Virus record (IMG/VR): IMGVR_UViG_3300024518_003508
Location: 1-22,169 of that record
Source of the DNA: a virus
Reading direction: 5' to 3' (one strand)
DNA: 22,169 nt
The notes under the pieces are model-generated. The model did no database searches. It was given only the letters and a program-made list of their open reading frames with translations, and was not told where the DNA came from. Shown here piece after piece: positions 6,056 through 18,435 of the stretch; the stretch's first letter is position 1; each line of letters opens with the position of its first letter. The position numbers and the translations under genes are program-made.

Positions 6056-6481
6056 TTATTTCCGTTTTGCTGTTCTTTTCTGTACCTGTTTTAATACCGT
6101 AGGAGTTTCTTGAGTTGTCGTTTCAGCCTGTTCAGGTACCTTATTTTTTTCCGTAACAGGTGACTCTTCCACAACCTTTTCAGAAGTTTTTTCACTGTCC
6201 TCCCGGTCAAGTTCAGCCTGGGCGAGCCCTATTGCTTCAGCTTTTAACTCAGCTTTTGCCGCATCAATAGCGTTTTTTTGAGCAAGTTTTTCAGCCTCAG
6301 ATAACTCAATTACAGGACGTTTTCGAAGTATTTCTTTATCAGTCCCTTTCTGCAATGCGTTTATCTTAGGGTTTTTATGGCTTTCATATCCTTCAAGCCC
6401 GGCCTCATATTCTTCAGTCTCGTTGTTTACTCGTATTCTTTTACCACCTGCTTTCACTACACTTCTGGGGTAACTTCTCAT
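6056..6481 (-). CDS. Hypothetical charged head/neck-region protein (141 aa)
   Basis: I do not recognise a family. The first 35 residues form a basic, compact segment (MRSYPRSVVKAGGKRIRV, then acidic NNETEEYEAGLEGYE). This resembles small structural proteins found next to coat genes in other phages. Residues 60-105 are Ala, Glu and Lys-rich and probably helical. The C-terminus is Glu, Thr and Lys-rich and probably disordered, ending KRTAKRK. GGAG sits 8 bases before the ATG. The gene lies just after a terminator-like hairpin and 9 bases before the gp4-like gene, so it is expressed with the tail-completion genes. A minor virion or assembly protein is possible, but that is inference. Confidence 0.7.
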   Translation of the reverse strand: MRSYPRSVVKAGGKRIRVNNETEEYEAGLEGYESHKNPKINALQKGTDKEILRKRPVIELSEAEKLAQKNAIDAAKAELKAEAIGLAQAELDREDSEKTSEKVVEESPVTEKNKVPEQAETTTQETPTVLKQVQKRTAKRK

Positions 6482-6500
6482 TTTCCCGTCTCCTTTTGTT

Positions 6501-6525
6501 AAAATGGGGACGGTTTCCCGCCCCC
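6501..6525 (-). terminator. Hairpin with GAAA tetraloop and short U tract
   Basis: Read on the minus strand, an 8-bp stem (one G-U wobble) spans 6525-6518 and 6513-6506, closed by a GAAA loop and followed by ATTTT. The geometry fits an intrinsic terminator, although the U tract is only four long. It lies between the 218-residue protein and the 141-residue protein, so it could lower readthrough from the strongly expressed capsid genes into the tail genes, or stabilise the upstream mRNA end. Confidence 0.55.
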
Positions 6526-6531
6526 TGTGAA

Positions 6532-7188
6532 TTATGCTGATACCGCTTTAATAACGGCAAAATTAATTAGGATTGCTCCTGTTTCTGCTGTACCCGCTGC
6601 CACATTACCATTATGTACTCGAATGGTAAATGAACCCGCTGCCACATCCTGAACAGAAAGCACTGTACCTCCACTATCTTCACCTGATTGAATAGACAGA
6701 ACAACGCAGTCACCAATAGCCACTGCACTGTTTGTTACTATAAAATCGGCTGACGCTTCTGCCGCCAGAGAAGTATTGTCGGTTGTGATTGTTCCACAAA
6801 TGGTATTCACTGTCACGCCCGTTGACCGGTTTGTGATTTGTGTTACCGCTCCACCTGCACCAGTTGCATAACCTATACCAGAGGTTGCCCCGGTAGAAGT
6901 AATGGTTGTGGTTGCGGATATGGCACCGGTAGTTGTTAGAGCACCAGTAGCCACAGTACCCGTGAGTGAAATAGCTCCGCTTGTGGTGATTGTGTAAGCC
7001 GTTCCCGCTGCTCTAGGCCCGAAATCAGACAGCACAACACCTAAATCAATAGTTGCACCCGCCTGATCAACCGGAGTAGCGCCATGTGTTGAGCAAACAG
7101 AGGAAGTGGCATTTCCCATTCGGCACCCTGCATCTCCCTCATCGGAAAGTTCAAGGATACCAGCCTTATTTGAGTTTGTAGTTCCCAT
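6532..7188 (-). CDS. Repetitive capsid-adjacent protein, possible head fibre or decoration (218 aa)
   Basis: The gene lies 14 bases downstream of the coat gene and has a near-perfect SD (GGAGG). The N-terminal 60 residues contain two Cys and the motif LSDEGDAGCRMG. Residues 70-115 are a Thr, Gly and Ser-rich repeat (ITTSGAISLTGT and related), similar in style to the fibre shaft at 106-3909. The C-terminal 100 residues, from about VTQITNRSTGV, form an ordered-looking beta domain ending in INFAVIKAVSA. This type of domain recurs in phage structural proteins. A decoration or head-fibre role is inferred from adjacency to coat and composition. Catalytic residues are not evident. Confidence 0.75.
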   Translation of the reverse strand: MGTTNSNKAGILELSDEGDAGCRMGNATSSVCSTHGATPVDQAGATIDLGVVLSDFGPRAAGTAYTITTSGAISLTGTVATGALTTTGAISATTTITSTGATSGIGYATGAGGAVTQITNRSTGVTVNTICGTITTDNTSLAAEASADFIVTNSAVAIGDCVVLSIQSGEDSGGTVLSVQDVAAGSFTIRVHNGNVAAGTAETGAILINFAVIKAVSA

Positions 7189-13084: not shown

Positions 13085-13212
13085 TCAGGTGGCTGTGTCA
13101 TTGATGTCGGGCAAACGTCAACAGCATAAACCGCACAACGGCAGTCATTAAGAGGGTACCCACAGCCGGTACACACCAGTATACAATACTCTATTTTGAT
13201 ACTATCGCCCAC
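13072..13212 (-). CDS. Cys-rich 46-residue peptide, zinc-knuckle-like
   Basis: A small overlapping gene that begins with GTG at 13212. AGGAG lies 7 bases upstream, inside the end of the XhlA-like gene. The sequence has six Cys within residues 10-34, including CTGCGY and DCRC, a spacing that could bind one zinc ion or form disulphides. It overlaps the start of the beta-helix gene by 13 bases, giving three genes chained by overlap. The strong SD and lack of room for other coding support reality. No family is recognised; a shadow frame cannot be fully excluded because most of it lies in the 107-base gap. Confidence 0.6.
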   Translation of the reverse strand: MGDSIKIEYCILVCTGCGYPLNDCRCAVYAVDVCPTSMTQPPEWAS

Positions 13213-13415
13213 GTTGCCACTCCTATTGATATTACACCTGAAAAAAGCATTGTCACAACTAATGTATTGATTCGCTGGGGTATCTTTGCAAGCTCTTCGA
13301 ATATCTTCTGGATATCAGATTCATTCCGGGTGACTTTTGTCTCCAACTTCTCAACCTCCATTAGTCTTTTGTCGAACCCGTTAAGCTGCTCACGTACTTG
13401 CTTCTCTATTGTCAT
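13191..13415 (-). CDS. XhlA-like small membrane protein (74 aa)
   Basis: Residues 1-48 form a charged helix with heptad character (EKQVREQLNGFDKRLMEVEKL onwards). Residues about 50-71 are a single membrane segment (LVVTMLFSGVISIGVATWAIV) and the tail is VSK. A cytoplasmic coiled coil followed by one C-terminal transmembrane helix is the layout of XhlA/haemolysin-XhlA family proteins. In some phages these are part of the lysis cassette. AAGGAT lies just before the ATG, and the start overlaps the portal end by 26 bases. Finding it between portal and a beta-helix protein rather than near a lysin makes a lysis role uncertain. Confidence 0.7.
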   Translation of the reverse strand: MTIEKQVREQLNGFDKRLMEVEKLETKVTRNESDIQKIFEELAKIPQRINTLVVTMLFSGVISIGVATWAIVSK

Positions 13416-15777
13416 TATCCTTCAGCTTTGAATCTACTTTGTAACCCTCACCGCTTTCCTTAACCGTACCAGTGGTTACAGTGCCATTATCCGCTTTGGT
13501 TTCAAATTTATACTTGCCCTTACCGCTTTTCTTTACTGTTGTGGTTTTCTTCGTGGGGGGCTTGACCGCCTCAAAACTCTCACGAATAAGCTCTTTAATC
13601 TCGCTCATCTTGTTACCAGTTTCAGTCTTGATTTCAGTCTTAACATTGACAGATTCTTTCTCTTTGGATTTCTCTGTGTTTTCGTGAAGCCGGTCAATCT
13701 TTATTATCTCTGAGTCAGTGGATACTTTGACCTTAATAAGCTCTGCTTTGTTTTTCTCGTTTGCTATCTCAACCTGAGCACCTGTCTGTAAATCAGCAAT
13801 CTTGCCATTAACCTGCAGCTCTTTTTCCTTTAGGGCCAGTTCCGCTTTACCTTTCTCAATCTCAGCTTTCAGTTTAGCCCATTCAATTTTAAGCTGCTCC
13901 ATATCATTCTGAGCTTTACCCGCTGCCGCTGCGTTTTTGTCGGCGTTTGATTTCTGAAGTGCCTGTTGTAATTCCTGCGCCTGCTGGGCCATCTGCTGCA
14001 TTTGCTGCTGTGCCTGTTGTAATTGCTGCTGCAATAAGGCAACCTCATCATTATCGCCTTCTTCCGGTTTGACCTGTGTGGTTATTCCCGGTATCTGTTT
14101 CTCCACTGCAAATTCAAGCCTGTCGGCCAGTGCGTCCTTACCTACCCAATCCTGAGACCTTACCACCAAATCAGGGGCAGTGTTTTGAATAAGTGGAACC
14201 TGCTGTAATGTTTCAAGCATACCCTGTGCAGCCTCTTCCCTCTGCGTGTTTGTCGAAGGGCCCACCGATACAGTCACATTATAATTACCATCACCAAGAC
14301 CAATATCATCAGTCCCATTTATCTCTGTCATTTCTTCCTCATCGTCCTCACCCATAATGGTAATCGTGCGCTGAGTATCATAAATAATCGGTAAAGCAGG
14401 GTTGATTATCCGACCCTCATGTGTGATTGCATGCGAATAATTCTGAATATAGTGGTAATTTGCGTTATCTGCCTGAGCCTCTCGCCTGCGTATTGCTACG
14501 CCGCTGGTTTCGTTCGATTTTTGCCCAACAGATGAATTATAAATACCTGTGATGCGCTTTATATCCTCAATAATCTCCTGTTTCTGGTTGACAATCCCGA
14601 CAGGTACTCCGGCAAATGGTATAGGCTGGGGAGGTGGGACAAGCTGGCCTTCGAAAGTTTTAGGGGTGTAAGTCAAGGTCGAAAGGGTGTCACGATTACT
14701 ATTACCCCATTCATCCTCATAGGATTCAAGCTGCCCCTCTGCTGCAATATATCTGGTCTTTGGTGACAAACTGATTAATTCAGCCTCAGAGCTGGACAGA
14801 AAATTGTACATCCTGCATGGTTGTATGATATCCCTGATAAGCCCCTTGAGTGACAACCGGCCACGGGAAATGCTTTCCTTACCGATTACAGTTACAATCG
14901 GAATCACCTTCCAGGGTAAATCTTTCTTCTCAAGGATTTCTTCAGAAGTAATAAGACACCACTTCCATTGCGGGTCTTCAACCCATCGCTCCTTGATAAT
15001 CTTGTACCGTTTGCGCTTGATTTCATCCTCATACAGTGTTCTTGTCCCGGAAACCCCGTCTTTTGTCTCTTCGATGGTAACCAGTTTGCGCTTTTTCATA
15101 TCCCGGTAGAAATATTCAGCAACCGTTACTCTGTCGCTGCTCGACCATTTTTTGCGGTCACGGCTACTTGAGGACCATCCAGAGTCATACGCTTTAGGAT
15201 ATTTCTCTTCAAACTTGGTGCGCTCCATATCATTGATGATAAATCCGTGGTCACAGTCAGAGTAATCAACTTTTTCCCGTTCGATATCCATATAAACCGC
15301 AAGTGAATCTTTGATAGGGTCTATATAAATCTTCTGATTCATCGTGCCTTCAACATACTCAGTCCTTACCACATAATGCCCTCTGCCCATATCCACAGCA
15401 TCGTCAAATGCCTGTTGCCGGGCCATCTGTGCTTTACTTTCATAGCTGATATGTCGTACTAAGCCTTGTCTTCGGGTAGCTATTTTTTCCTGTGCCCCCT
15501 CATCTGTGGGGGATATCTTTACCGATGGTTTATTCTGTCGCTGCTGATTCTTGACGTGGTCAGTGAACATATTAGAAAGCATCACTGTAATAAATGGCCT
15601 GCCTGTCGCGTCTCGCCCCTTCCAGTCTTGCTCTTCCCACTGGGAATTATTTGTATTCAGGCTGAAATCTTTGTCCTCTTCCATAAGAACTCGTTGATCG
15701 TTCTCATAGCCCTCTATGACTTGGAACTGCTTCATGGCTTTTTCGAGTAGTTTTCTGTCGGCTTCAGAAACAGCCAT
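13390..15777 (-). CDS. Portal protein, P22 type (795 aa)
   Basis: This protein forms the dodecameric DNA gate at one capsid vertex. The N-terminal half resembles P22 gp1: SQWEEQDW, RPFITVMLSNMFTDHVKNQQRQNKP and the DPIKDSLAVYMDIER segment, followed by NQKQEIIEDIKRITGIYNSS and SGVAIRRREAQADN. These stretches are strongly conserved in P22-type portals. From residue 581 a Gln-rich helical region (LLQQQLQQAQQQMQQM) and a long Lys/Glu coiled coil run to about 720, corresponding to the barrel helix. The last 75 residues are a Lys, Thr and Gly-rich extension. At 795 residues it is somewhat longer than P22 portal (725). The ATG SD lies inside a hairpin (15779-15815). It follows terL as in P22. Confidence 0.92.
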   Translation of the reverse strand: MAVSEADRKLLEKAMKQFQVIEGYENDQRVLMEEDKDFSLNTNNSQWEEQDWKGRDATGRPFITVMLSNMFTDHVKNQQRQNKPSVKISPTDEGAQEKIATRRQGLVRHISYESKAQMARQQAFDDAVDMGRGHYVVRTEYVEGTMNQKIYIDPIKDSLAVYMDIEREKVDYSDCDHGFIINDMERTKFEEKYPKAYDSGWSSSSRDRKKWSSSDRVTVAEYFYRDMKKRKLVTIEETKDGVSGTRTLYEDEIKRKRYKIIKERWVEDPQWKWCLITSEEILEKKDLPWKVIPIVTVIGKESISRGRLSLKGLIRDIIQPCRMYNFLSSSEAELISLSPKTRYIAAEGQLESYEDEWGNSNRDTLSTLTYTPKTFEGQLVPPPQPIPFAGVPVGIVNQKQEIIEDIKRITGIYNSSVGQKSNETSGVAIRRREAQADNANYHYIQNYSHAITHEGRIINPALPIIYDTQRTITIMGEDDEEEMTEINGTDDIGLGDGNYNVTVSVGPSTNTQREEAAQGMLETLQQVPLIQNTAPDLVVRSQDWVGKDALADRLEFAVEKQIPGITTQVKPEEGDNDEVALLQQQLQQAQQQMQQMAQQAQELQQALQKSNADKNAAAAGKAQNDMEQLKIEWAKLKAEIEKGKAELALKEKELQVNGKIADLQTGAQVEIANEKNKAELIKVKVSTDSEIIKIDRLHENTEKSKEKESVNVKTEIKTETGNKMSEIKELIRESFEAVKPPTKKTTTVKKSGKGKYKFETKADNGTVTTGTVKESGEGYKVDSKLKDNDNREAST

Positions 15778-15778
15778 A

Positions 15779-15840
15779 GACGCACCTCATGGGGGTAATT
15801 CGATGTGGGTGCGTCAGTTACGACGGGTACTCAGGAGTAC
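15779..15840 (-). promoter_or_regulatory. Hairpins in the portal leader, one covering the SD
   Basis: On the minus strand, 15815-15808 pairs with 15786-15779 in a perfect 8-bp stem (GACGCACC/GGTGCGTC). It ends two bases before the portal ATG and contains part of the GAGG SD. A second hairpin, GTACTC-AG-GAGTAC, lies at 15827-15840. The terL-portal gap of 107 bases has no other gene. The layout would limit portal translation unless the stem is opened, a plausible way to keep this low-copy protein scarce. That is inference; no U-tract is present, so it is not a terminator. Confidence 0.5.
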
Positions 15841-15884
15841 TGTCTTAAGATACTATTATTTTAGCTTGCGTGGGAGTTTAATTT

Positions 15885-17327
15885 TCATCCCATATAGCTC
15901 CCTTTCCGTCTTCGGATTACTGGTTTCTTAGGTAAAGGTTTGACTTTTGCTTCATCTCTGCCCATATACACATACCTTGTACAATCCATTACGTGGTCAT
16001 TGGTCTTAACTATCTTACCTTTATCATCCCTGCGGTAAATCCTGAATTCTTCAAACCACTGTCTTTGGCTTTTGAATACCTTTAATCTTCCGGTGCTTAG
16101 AGCCTCCCAAACCTTGTATAATCCAGCCTCAACAGCGTTCTTCGCGGAGCTTATGTGTAATCCTAAATCCGTATAGCTTTGTATGAGCTGAGAACCGTCA
16201 TTCTGTGACCTTCCTCTAGCAGCAGGGTCAATCTTACCATTTATCCAATCACCACGAGCCTTGAACGCTTCAGCATGGATGGCAGGTTCGGCCTCACCCT
16301 TTTTGTAAACGGAATAGATATAGGTCACCCCGGTTTCCTTATCAATTGCTATCCAACACCCAGCGGTAAAGTTCCAGCCCACGTCCATTGCATACAGTTT
16401 GGGCCAGTGAACAGGGATTTCGAAATCAGGTACTTCAATCTCAGACTCAGGGACGGGGTAAATAACACCAGAGCCGAGCTGGGGTATCCCCTTTGACCTG
16501 GCATCTCTCTGATATGGTGGGATTGATGCCCACAGTTTGTCAGCCTGAGCCTTGCTTATATGAGGAGCATCATCCCATGTTGCCATAATGACAAACTTGG
16601 ACCCCGCATTATCAATAGTTCCCCAATCACCATCTGGCAGGAAGTGCATAACAGTCTCTGAAATACCCTCAAGTGGGGTAAACGTGCAGATTAGAAGCCC
16701 TGTATCATCCCCTCCACTGGTATCCATAGTCCTGAGCAGGCACTCAGAGTAAATGGGCAGTGGCGGCTCTTCATCCATCCAGATAAAATCCTTCTTGGTC
16801 CCTTGAAATGATTTACGCTTTTGGTCATAACTCTTGAATCCAAGCAGGCTGGTACCACCAGACTTGTGCTTAATTCTCACTGTCTCGATTGCTTCCGGTA
16901 CACCAGTTTTGGGAGTAGTGCCGATTATCAAGTCTTTTGGTATTAGGCCCGAGCCAATATCATTGTAATCTCCAAGGAGTTTTTCCTGAAGGATGTCCCG
17001 AACGGTGGTGTTAGTGTCACCAGCAGCCCATCCAGTGGTAGGTTTATCAAATCGTTTGCCGGGCCACCAGTCTGGATAATATCCTGTTAAATGATGAGAG
17101 GCTTCAAATCCTCCCACTGACTCGGTCTTGCCCACCCTGTTCGCTGCAAGCATACACCTTTCAGAATAAGTTAGGCCAGCTTCAAAAAACGTTGTGTGTT
17201 TAGTGTACAACTCCCGGCGAAGGGGGCCAGTGTCAGGGAAATAGGTATCTATCTTGTTGTATTTAATCCTGTCCCGGAGTTCTTCCTTGATTTGGATCTT
17301 CTCTCTTAGTTCATCGTCTGTTAGGAT
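15885..17327 (-). CDS. terL: Terminase large subunit; start codon uncertain
   Basis: The ATPase-nuclease that packages DNA into the procapsid. Counting from the proposed ATC start, the Walker A motif AANRVGKT lies at about 61-68 and Walker B FIWMDEE at about 181-187. The nuclease domain has an Asp in AMDVGWN near 315 and DHVMD near 444-448. The nearest usual start is TTG at 17210. The frame stays open 39 codons further, encoding a stretch (ELRDRIKYNKIDTYFPDTG, then PLRRELYTKH) that is typical of the N-terminus of this terminase type. No ATG, GTG or TTG occurs in it; a TAG closes the frame at 17342. GGGAGAGG lies 5 bases before the ATC at 17327. Product is certain; start is not. A G-to-C change in an original ATG would explain it. 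Confidence 0.9.
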   Translation of the reverse strand: MLTDDELREKIQIKEELRDRIKYNKIDTYFPDTGPLRRELYTKHTTFFEAGLTYSERCMLAANRVGKTESVGGFEASHHLTGYYPDWWPGKRFDKPTTGWAAGDTNTTVRDILQEKLLGDYNDIGSGLIPKDLIIGTTPKTGVPEAIETVRIKHKSGGTSLLGFKSYDQKRKSFQGTKKDFIWMDEEPPLPIYSECLLRTMDTSGGDDTGLLICTFTPLEGISETVMHFLPDGDWGTIDNAGSKFVIMATWDDAPHISKAQADKLWASIPPYQRDARSKGIPQLGSGVIYPVPESEIEVPDFEIPVHWPKLYAMDVGWNFTAGCWIAIDKETGVTYIYSVYKKGEAEPAIHAEAFKARGDWINGKIDPAARGRSQNDGSQLIQSYTDLGLHISSAKNAVEAGLYKVWEALSTGRLKVFKSQRQWFEEFRIYRRDDKGKIVKTNDHVMDCTRYVYMGRDEAKVKPLPKKPVIRRRKGSYMG

Positions 17328-17387
17328 TTCTGCCTCTCCCTATGCGTATTTAATACAATTGCTGTTGTTGATTCCTGTCTAAAAACG

Positions 17388-17492
17388 TCATTCAGTGCCA
17401 GTGGGATAGAATCCGTCAAAACCAAATAATACAAGTATCAGATAAAATAACCCGCCAACCACAATCATACCAATCGCAATAGATTCTATCAC
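17388..17492 (-). CDS. 34-residue single-pass membrane peptide between terS and terL
   Basis: GTG at 17492 overlaps the terS stop (GTGA), and GGAG lies 8 bases upstream within the last terS codons. After MIESIAIGM the peptide has a hydrophobic segment (IVVGGLFYLILVLFGF) long enough to cross a membrane, and it ends FYPTGTE. The gene fills most of the 149-base gap between the two terminase genes. The overlap, SD and hydrophobic helix support a real gene, although a peptide this short could be chance. A membrane role between packaging genes is unexplained; it could be a holin-like or host-interaction peptide. Confidence 0.55.
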   Translation of the reverse strand: MIESIAIGMIVVGGLFYLILVLFGFDGFYPTGTE

Positions 17493-17782
17493 CCTTCCAG
17501 CTCCTTTAGTCTCTGTTCCAGCTCTTCACGTGATTGGTTCTTCAGTTCGTTCATATCTGTGTTTTCGATGGCCTGTGGTTGTCTCCTGTGTACAAACGGG
17601 GCAGCAGCTTTGCCAGCGTCCACCCTGGTACCGACTGTCTGCTCTTCATCGTTCATAACCTCCAATAAGTACTCTAAAGGGGATTTACCGCCATCTTCCT
17701 GAACCTTTGCCAGTATCTTGGCTTTGTGGCTTGATCGGCCTTTAACAGCTCCACCTGTCTTTTTTTGCCCTTTTGCGCCCAT
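17489..17782 (-). CDS. terS: Terminase small subunit
   Basis: A 97-residue protein whose central region (SPLEYLLEVMNDEEQTVGTRVDAG, split by helical turns, then KAAAPFVHRR) is typical of a family of small terminase subunits. These have the form PLEYML.VM..., then AAPYVHPR. The basic N-terminus (KGQKKTGGAVKGRSSHKAK) suits recognition of the packaging start site, and the C-terminus (QSREELEQRLKELEG) is a helix that can form a ring. It is short for the family and lacks an obvious helix-turn-helix. The ATG has only a weak SD. Its position immediately upstream of terL supports the call. Confidence 0.8.
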   Translation of the reverse strand: MGAKGQKKTGGAVKGRSSHKAKILAKVQEDGGKSPLEYLLEVMNDEEQTVGTRVDAGKAAAPFVHRRQPQAIENTDMNELKNQSREELEQRLKELEG

Positions 17783-17820: not shown

Positions 17821-18015
17821 CTAGTGAGCAGTAATCTCTTCTGTTAAATCATTAAAATCCCCGAATTCCCGAGTTATCGGATTATATGATATAATATTCC
17901 CCCGACGCACCAGAAATGTTTCACTTGGGTGTATTTTCCATTTACGCCCTGTATTTTCTATTTCATCCTCGTGCTTGTCAAAATCGTCCGGTGTTTTTCT
18001 TACAATAACACTCAT
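17821..18015 (-). CDS. Hypothetical 64-aa protein
   Basis: It starts with ATG at 18015, overlapping the stop of the head-binding-like gene upstream (ATGA), with only GAG just before it, so translation is probably coupled. The N-terminal third is acidic (DDFDKHEDEIEN). The remainder has beta character with aromatic turns (WKIHPSETFLVRRG, ISYNPITREFGDF). No motif or family is recognised. It is the last gene before terS and belongs to the small-gene operon. Confidence 0.65.
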   Translation of the reverse strand: MSVIVRKTPDDFDKHEDEIENTGRKWKIHPSETFLVRRGNIISYNPITREFGDFNDLTEEITAH

Positions 18016-18281
18016 TCAAGCTCATTTATTCTTTTATGGTAAATTTGGACATCTCTATCATCATAGAGATCAATAAACCCCTCATTAGTCTCTAAATAAA
18101 TATCTGCTTCAGCTGCATAATCAAGAATAACAGGGTTAGTGTTCACGGTTTCCCCATCCTTATCATGGTATGAGATAATCAAATTTCCGCTTAAATCAGT
18201 AATTCTAACTTTCCCGTTTGGATATTTAATACCCTGGCGTTCACCGATAAACCTTACTTTTGGTTTTAGTTTAAACTTCAT
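18012..18281 (-). CDS. Stand-alone fibre/tailspike head-binding-like domain (89 aa)
   Basis: I choose the ATG at 18281, which has AGGAG 5 bases upstream; an earlier in-frame ATG at 18326 has no comparable SD. The core (KVRITDLSGNLIISYHDKDG, then TVNTNPVILDYAAEADIYLE) follows the form: property strand, NTNP(I/V)(I/V)LD, acidic turn, (I/V)(Y/W)L. That form is found in N-terminal particle-binding domains of phage tailspikes and fibres. Here it is the whole protein; no spike follows, and the next gene is unrelated. It may be a capsid-bound minor protein, a spike adaptor, or a relic of a lost fibre. A second small protein of this kind lies at 21289-21501. Confidence 0.7.
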   Translation of the reverse strand: MKFKLKPKVRFIGERQGIKYPNGKVRITDLSGNLIISYHDKDGETVNTNPVILDYAAEADIYLETNEGFIDLYDDRDVQIYHKRINELE

Positions 18282-18435
18282 TATGCTCCTGGTAATATTT
18301 TGTGAGTTTGAAAAAGACTTCCTCACCTCTCGTTTTCATCTCATCAATGGCTTTCTGCCAGATATCATGCGTTTTCTTATCATAGATGGTTATTTCTATA
18401 ACTTCCCTCTTTTGTGCTTCTATACCGCTATGCAT
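18271..18435 (-). CDS. Hypothetical 54-aa helical protein
   Basis: A small gene between two others: ATG at 18435 has GAGGGG 4 bases upstream and overlaps the upstream stop. The stop lies 11 bases inside the next gene. The sequence is rich in charged residues and looks helical (EAQKREVIEITIYDKK, then DIWQKAIDEMKTRGEEV). No family is recognised. The SD, overlap pattern and sensible composition make it a likely real gene that length cut-offs would miss. Confidence 0.6.
   Translation of the reverse strand: MHSGIEAQKREVIEITIYDKKTHDIWQKAIDEMKTRGEEVFFKLTKYYQEHNEV

Follow-up and report, generated by a model that had tools for sequence, protein, structure and literature searches.

A probable AUC start for the large terminase gene of a P22-like phage

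The terL gene and its reading frame

Where does translation of a phage terminase gene begin when none of the usual start codons precedes its conserved N-terminus? The question is raised by IMG/VR record IMGVR_UViG_3300024518_003508, whose 22,169 nucleotides (the whole stretch analyzed here, termed the window) carry on the minus strand a gene for the large terminase subunit, terL. Its frame opens right after a TAG (17342-17340), which bounds it on the 5' side, and runs for 484 codons to a stop at 15887-15885. Upstream of the first in-frame TTG (17210-17208) the frame contains no ATG, GTG or TTG, a point that an earlier note on this DNA had made and that inspection of the frame confirmed. The same note had described the frame as open for 39 codons ahead of the TTG; this is the distance to an ATC at 17327-17325, while the frame itself is open for 43. 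As judged from sequence, terL of this P22-like phage is probably translated from AUC with the aid of a strong Shine-Dalgarno (SD) sequence, in which case the gene occupies 15885-17327 and has 480 codons.

The identity of the product is well supported by several searches. TerL matches the Pfam families Terminase_6N (E = 3.3e-19) and Terminase_6C (E = 6.9e-10), with PF03237 and PF17289 above cut-off, as well as the PHROG large terminase families, and in a profile search it matches 4dkw, the nuclease domain of the P22 terminase, with an E-value of 1.4e-42; an NCBIfam search with the TerL protein gave no match. In Foldseek, TerL matches the D6E and P22 terminases with low whole-chain TM-scores, and the P22 nuclease domain alone fits it well (TMt 0.84, rmsd 2.1). 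Upstream lies the small terminase subunit gene, terS (17489-17782, minus strand; PHROG 641, E = 5.8e-09; 45% identity to ORF 368-664 of the related locus L024), and downstream a portal gene (PHROG 156, P22_portal). The ATPase and RNase H-like nuclease domains, with terS and portal adjoining, are those of a P22/T4-type TerL. The terL genes of EBPR podovirus 1 and Chlorobiaceae phage CV-1-33 belong to the same protein family but, unlike that of the window, have usual start codons. Among the other homologs, one TerL (L023:2007-3878; MW202478.1) carries, by eye in the translation, an insertion resembling an intein close to the C-terminal part, and terL is in two frames or broken in L021 (1878-3510; MW202785.1), L011 and L012.

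A ribosome-binding site and the start positions of homologs

A ribosome-binding site positioned for the candidate codon is a mark of non-AUG-start genes, and it is present here. The proposed SD sequence, GGGAGAGG (17340-17333, minus strand), begins with the final base of the TAG and is followed by five bases and then the ATC, as the earlier note had observed; its computed duplex with the anti-SD of the 16S tail has an energy of -9.0 kcal/mol. This value is reached at 2.0% of positions on the minus strand, by 6 of its 268 ATC triplets (the terL ATC included), and by 4 of 26 hand-listed gene starts, for which the median is -6.55 and among which one coordinate, 18283, is without a start codon. 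Five ATC, ATT or ATA codons lie between the TAG and the TTG, and only the ATC at 17327-17325 has a strong SD sequence, the remainder having energies of -4.0 to -5.3. Given the 2.0% background and five candidate codons, we estimate the chance of finding such a pair at about 1 in 10; an SD sequence beside one of these codons by coincidence is only mildly improbable. Two further features of the start region were considered and rejected as relevant: an mRNA hairpin masking the SD sequence (only -3.0 to -4.8 kcal/mol) and an ATG that lies out of frame among the opening codons of terL and reads M-N-stop.

At the level of sequence comparison, the agreement of the ATC with the start positions of homologs is evidence independent of the SD-ATC pair. 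Homologous terL genes start within about four codons of the ATC site, nearly all with ATG. L002, L003, and L024, the relatives closest to the window (77-78% protein identity), have their ATG two to three codons farther 5' than the ATC equivalent. In a nine-row alignment (A1), L020 and L022 have their first ATG in the column of the ATC, and the other six starts are within four columns. The alignment with related terL genes that had been proposed as a check (A1, and the larger A3) thus places the starts near the ATC and not near the TTG. The ATC is 60 codons ahead of the Walker A motif, and in 65 of 86 homologs with the PDxG motif the chosen start is 55-67 codons ahead of it, although the tightness of this range and the column-1 agreement in A3 are partly imposed, because the ATG nearest to 58 codons was preferred.

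The stretch between the ATC and the TTG is conserved as protein, which bears out the recognizable terminase N-terminus described previously; the lack of a usual start at such a conserved N-terminus is a further mark of non-AUG-start genes that terL displays. In A3, which comprises the window and 37 rows drawn from the 86 PDxG-type homologs, every one of the 38 rows has the same residue at P31, G34, and R38, all encoded 5' of the TTG. Over codons 2-39, synonymous differences per site exceed nonsynonymous ones against L024 (pS 0.82, pN 0.26), L002 (pS 0.66, pN 0.27), L025 (pS 0.77, pN 0.35), and L104 (pS 0.63, pN 0.39), the last being the weakest contrast of the four, and these codons are less constrained than the remaining terL (pN 0.16-0.30). 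Residues 1-40 are modeled with confidence (block pLDDT 82-91), with a helix at 4-23. The constraint on these codons mostly reflects history in common with ATG-starting relatives; since the two contigs that have the ATC are identical throughout terL, there is no sign of selection on the N-terminus from the time after the ATC arose.

Competing readings of the start

The second of these contigs, IMGVR_UViG_3300024520_000645 (loci L001 and L018), has the same bases at the terL start, including the ATC. It is about 99.7% identical to the window over the aligned parts but distinct in its flanks and at scattered bases; for 6094-7108 and 17860-18434 of the window, no counterpart was found in it. Across 13139-17507, which holds terL, there are zero base differences, so the two contigs have a recent common ancestor and cannot test the ATC by divergence, and both may come from one population or a related sample. 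A search with the start-site pattern found this one contig with ATC and none with ATA, ATG or ATT, although records very near the window were possibly outside the search. Relative to L018, the window also has base differences clustered where terS ends (17507-17528), and upstream of terS a stretch has been replaced (17859-18435); these differences suggest recombination.

The earlier note had left three options for this gene: a start at the ATC, an ATG that was mutated or misread, and a truncated protein made from the TTG. The start at the ATC is the best supported by sequence, with the SD sequence, the homologous start position and the conserved N-terminus in its favor. That the TTG is the start of a TerL shortened by 39 residues is unlikely, even though it is the first codon of the usual start set and the one that gene callers would pick: its SD energy is only -1.5, it lies just 21 codons ahead of Walker A, and a protein begun there would lack both the helix at 4-23, predicted with good confidence, and the three invariant residues, which, together with the conservation of codons 2-39, makes truncation unlikely. 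Moreover, among the PDxG-type homologs examined with the 5' end present, only the sibling L001 is without a usual start further upstream. A base-call or assembly error in place of a true ATG is easily imagined for a metagenomic assembly in which a single base change would restore the codon; this is nonetheless very improbable, given the same ATC in a contig that departs from the window in its flanks and at scattered positions, and given the outcome of the pattern search. The misreading part of that option is accordingly weakened, while an evolutionary change of the codon is implied by the ATC start itself.

It is also quite improbable that the phage population is defective, with the ATC being a genuine mutation after which little or no TerL is made. 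Initiation at ATC is much weaker than at ATG, and the identity of the two contigs across terL is compatible with such a mutant; however, the remaining gene is an intact frame of 480 codons, the SD sequence and its spacing are good, and the variant occurs in two genomes that differ elsewhere. Least probable is that terL is entered by other means, either through a programmed -1 frameshift from an overlapping frame (17437-17321) or through reinitiation from a 13-codon ORF beginning at 17391. The overlapping frame ends at a TAA (17323-17321) adjoining the ATC, and the ATG of the short ORF overlaps the stop of the preceding peptide ORF. Against this, inspection showed that the only starts in the overlapping frame are TTG codons lacking an SD sequence and that the overlap contains no slippery heptamer; the 13-codon ORF, for its part, has already ended where the terL frame opens, which leaves it only a role in reinitiation, itself in need of a start such as the ATC.

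Initiation, comparable genes and the region upstream of terL

For initiation at the AUC, the 30S subunit would bind the SD sequence and thereby bring the AUC into the P site; there, initiator fMet-tRNA would pair with the A and U and mispair at the third base. Such initiation is probably weaker than at AUG and checked by IF3, as for infC, and ribosomes ending short upstream ORFs of the same operon could help. The product would be the full-length 480-residue packaging ATPase-nuclease. The packaging motor needs few copies of TerL, and weak initiation would therefore be tolerable.

Starts of this type have been described in bacteria. According to PMC5472188, infC, which encodes IF3, starts with ATT in E. 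coli and with ATC in Streptomyces, and IF3 represses such non-standard starts; a study cited in PMC12350097 places AUC among seven E. coli start codons far above background. In infC, the well-known case of non-standard initiation, the start class (AUC/AUU) is shared with terL, but infC is autoregulated by IF3, whereas feedback of this kind would have no obvious purpose in a phage terL. Similarly, sigR of Streptomyces combines a non-standard start with an extended SD sequence, and the same paper (PMC5472188) describes it as repressed by IF3 and its extended ribosome-binding site as suggested to help the GTC start. It differs from terL in its codon, in being a host regulatory gene, and in having been tested by experiment. 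A literature search found no phage gene, terL or other, reported to start with ATC, which does not prove that none exists. The terL gene would be an ordinary phage gene with a rare, already known start type, uncommon but not new.

The window and its sibling are not the only sources in which terL is without a usual start. The start survey covered 182 sources, namely the window and the loci L001-L183, from which L017 and L018 were omitted as repeats of the window or of L001; 13 of the 182 had no recognizable landmark. Among the other 169, four with the 5' end present (the window, L001, L006, and L154) offer no usual start codon 30 or more codons ahead of Walker A, a count that is not a rate because some of the 169 are near-duplicates; two further genes run off the contig end. 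L006 (IMGVR_UViG_3300003215_000090) and L154 (a Bradyrhizobium MAG) form a second such terL lineage, seen in two diverged sequences, since they share 88% protein identity and 89% DNA identity around the start. In both (L006:2920-3067; L154:1414-1561), ATG, GTG and TTG are absent at the conserved N-terminus, and a single TAG separates terS from terL, which share one reading frame. Their candidate starts are GTA/GTC directly after the terS stop (SD -4.1 and -6.3), a CTG (SD -8.0 and -6.6), and a conserved ATT 41 codons ahead of Walker A that has no SD sequence and at whose site 5 of 9 related loci (L185-L193) have ATG. In the genus of this lineage, 11 of 265 genomes matched, and apart from the genome of the lineage itself none of them exceeded 45% identity.

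This second lineage suggests checking terL annotations for non-standard starts. If AUC initiation holds in the window, it would be a case outside infC, in an essential phage assembly gene whose start codon gene callers would miss or misplace; they would give a 441-residue TerL without the conserved residues. It is unlikely that deliberate use of IF3-discriminated starts for terL is a trait of some P22-like phages, a choice that would have arisen at least twice (in the ATC lineage of the window and in that of L006 and L154). Such starts would then hold the packaging motor at low levels compared with TerS and portal or, alternatively, tie TerL synthesis to the translation state of the host late in infection.

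The gene order just 5' of terL differs between the window and its nearest relative, L024. In L024, the TAA of the preceding gene abuts the terL ATG, and the homolog of that gene in the window (18012-18326, minus strand; 60.6% identity over 94 aa, E = 2e-36) instead lies upstream of terS. At the DNA level, the resemblance to L024 tails off near 17310, within the first six or so terL codons. The differing order and the fading similarity suggest a rearrangement that would have altered the 5' end of terL, its start codon and its SD sequence; the ATC start may have originated with this rearrangement, during which the codon would probably have turned to AUC. Between terS and terL, the window has a 34-codon ORF for a membrane-type peptide (17388-17492, minus strand) whose GTG start overlaps the terS stop and which has weak similarity (E = 0.008) to a peptide encoded between terS and terL in L024. 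Read-through into terL from the in-frame upstream peptide ORF was rejected on account of three in-frame stops (TGA, TAG, TAG). The 13-codon ORF that follows (17350-17391; MTFLDRNQQQQLY), with its ATG on the stop of the membrane-type peptide ORF, is a possible leader ahead of terL.
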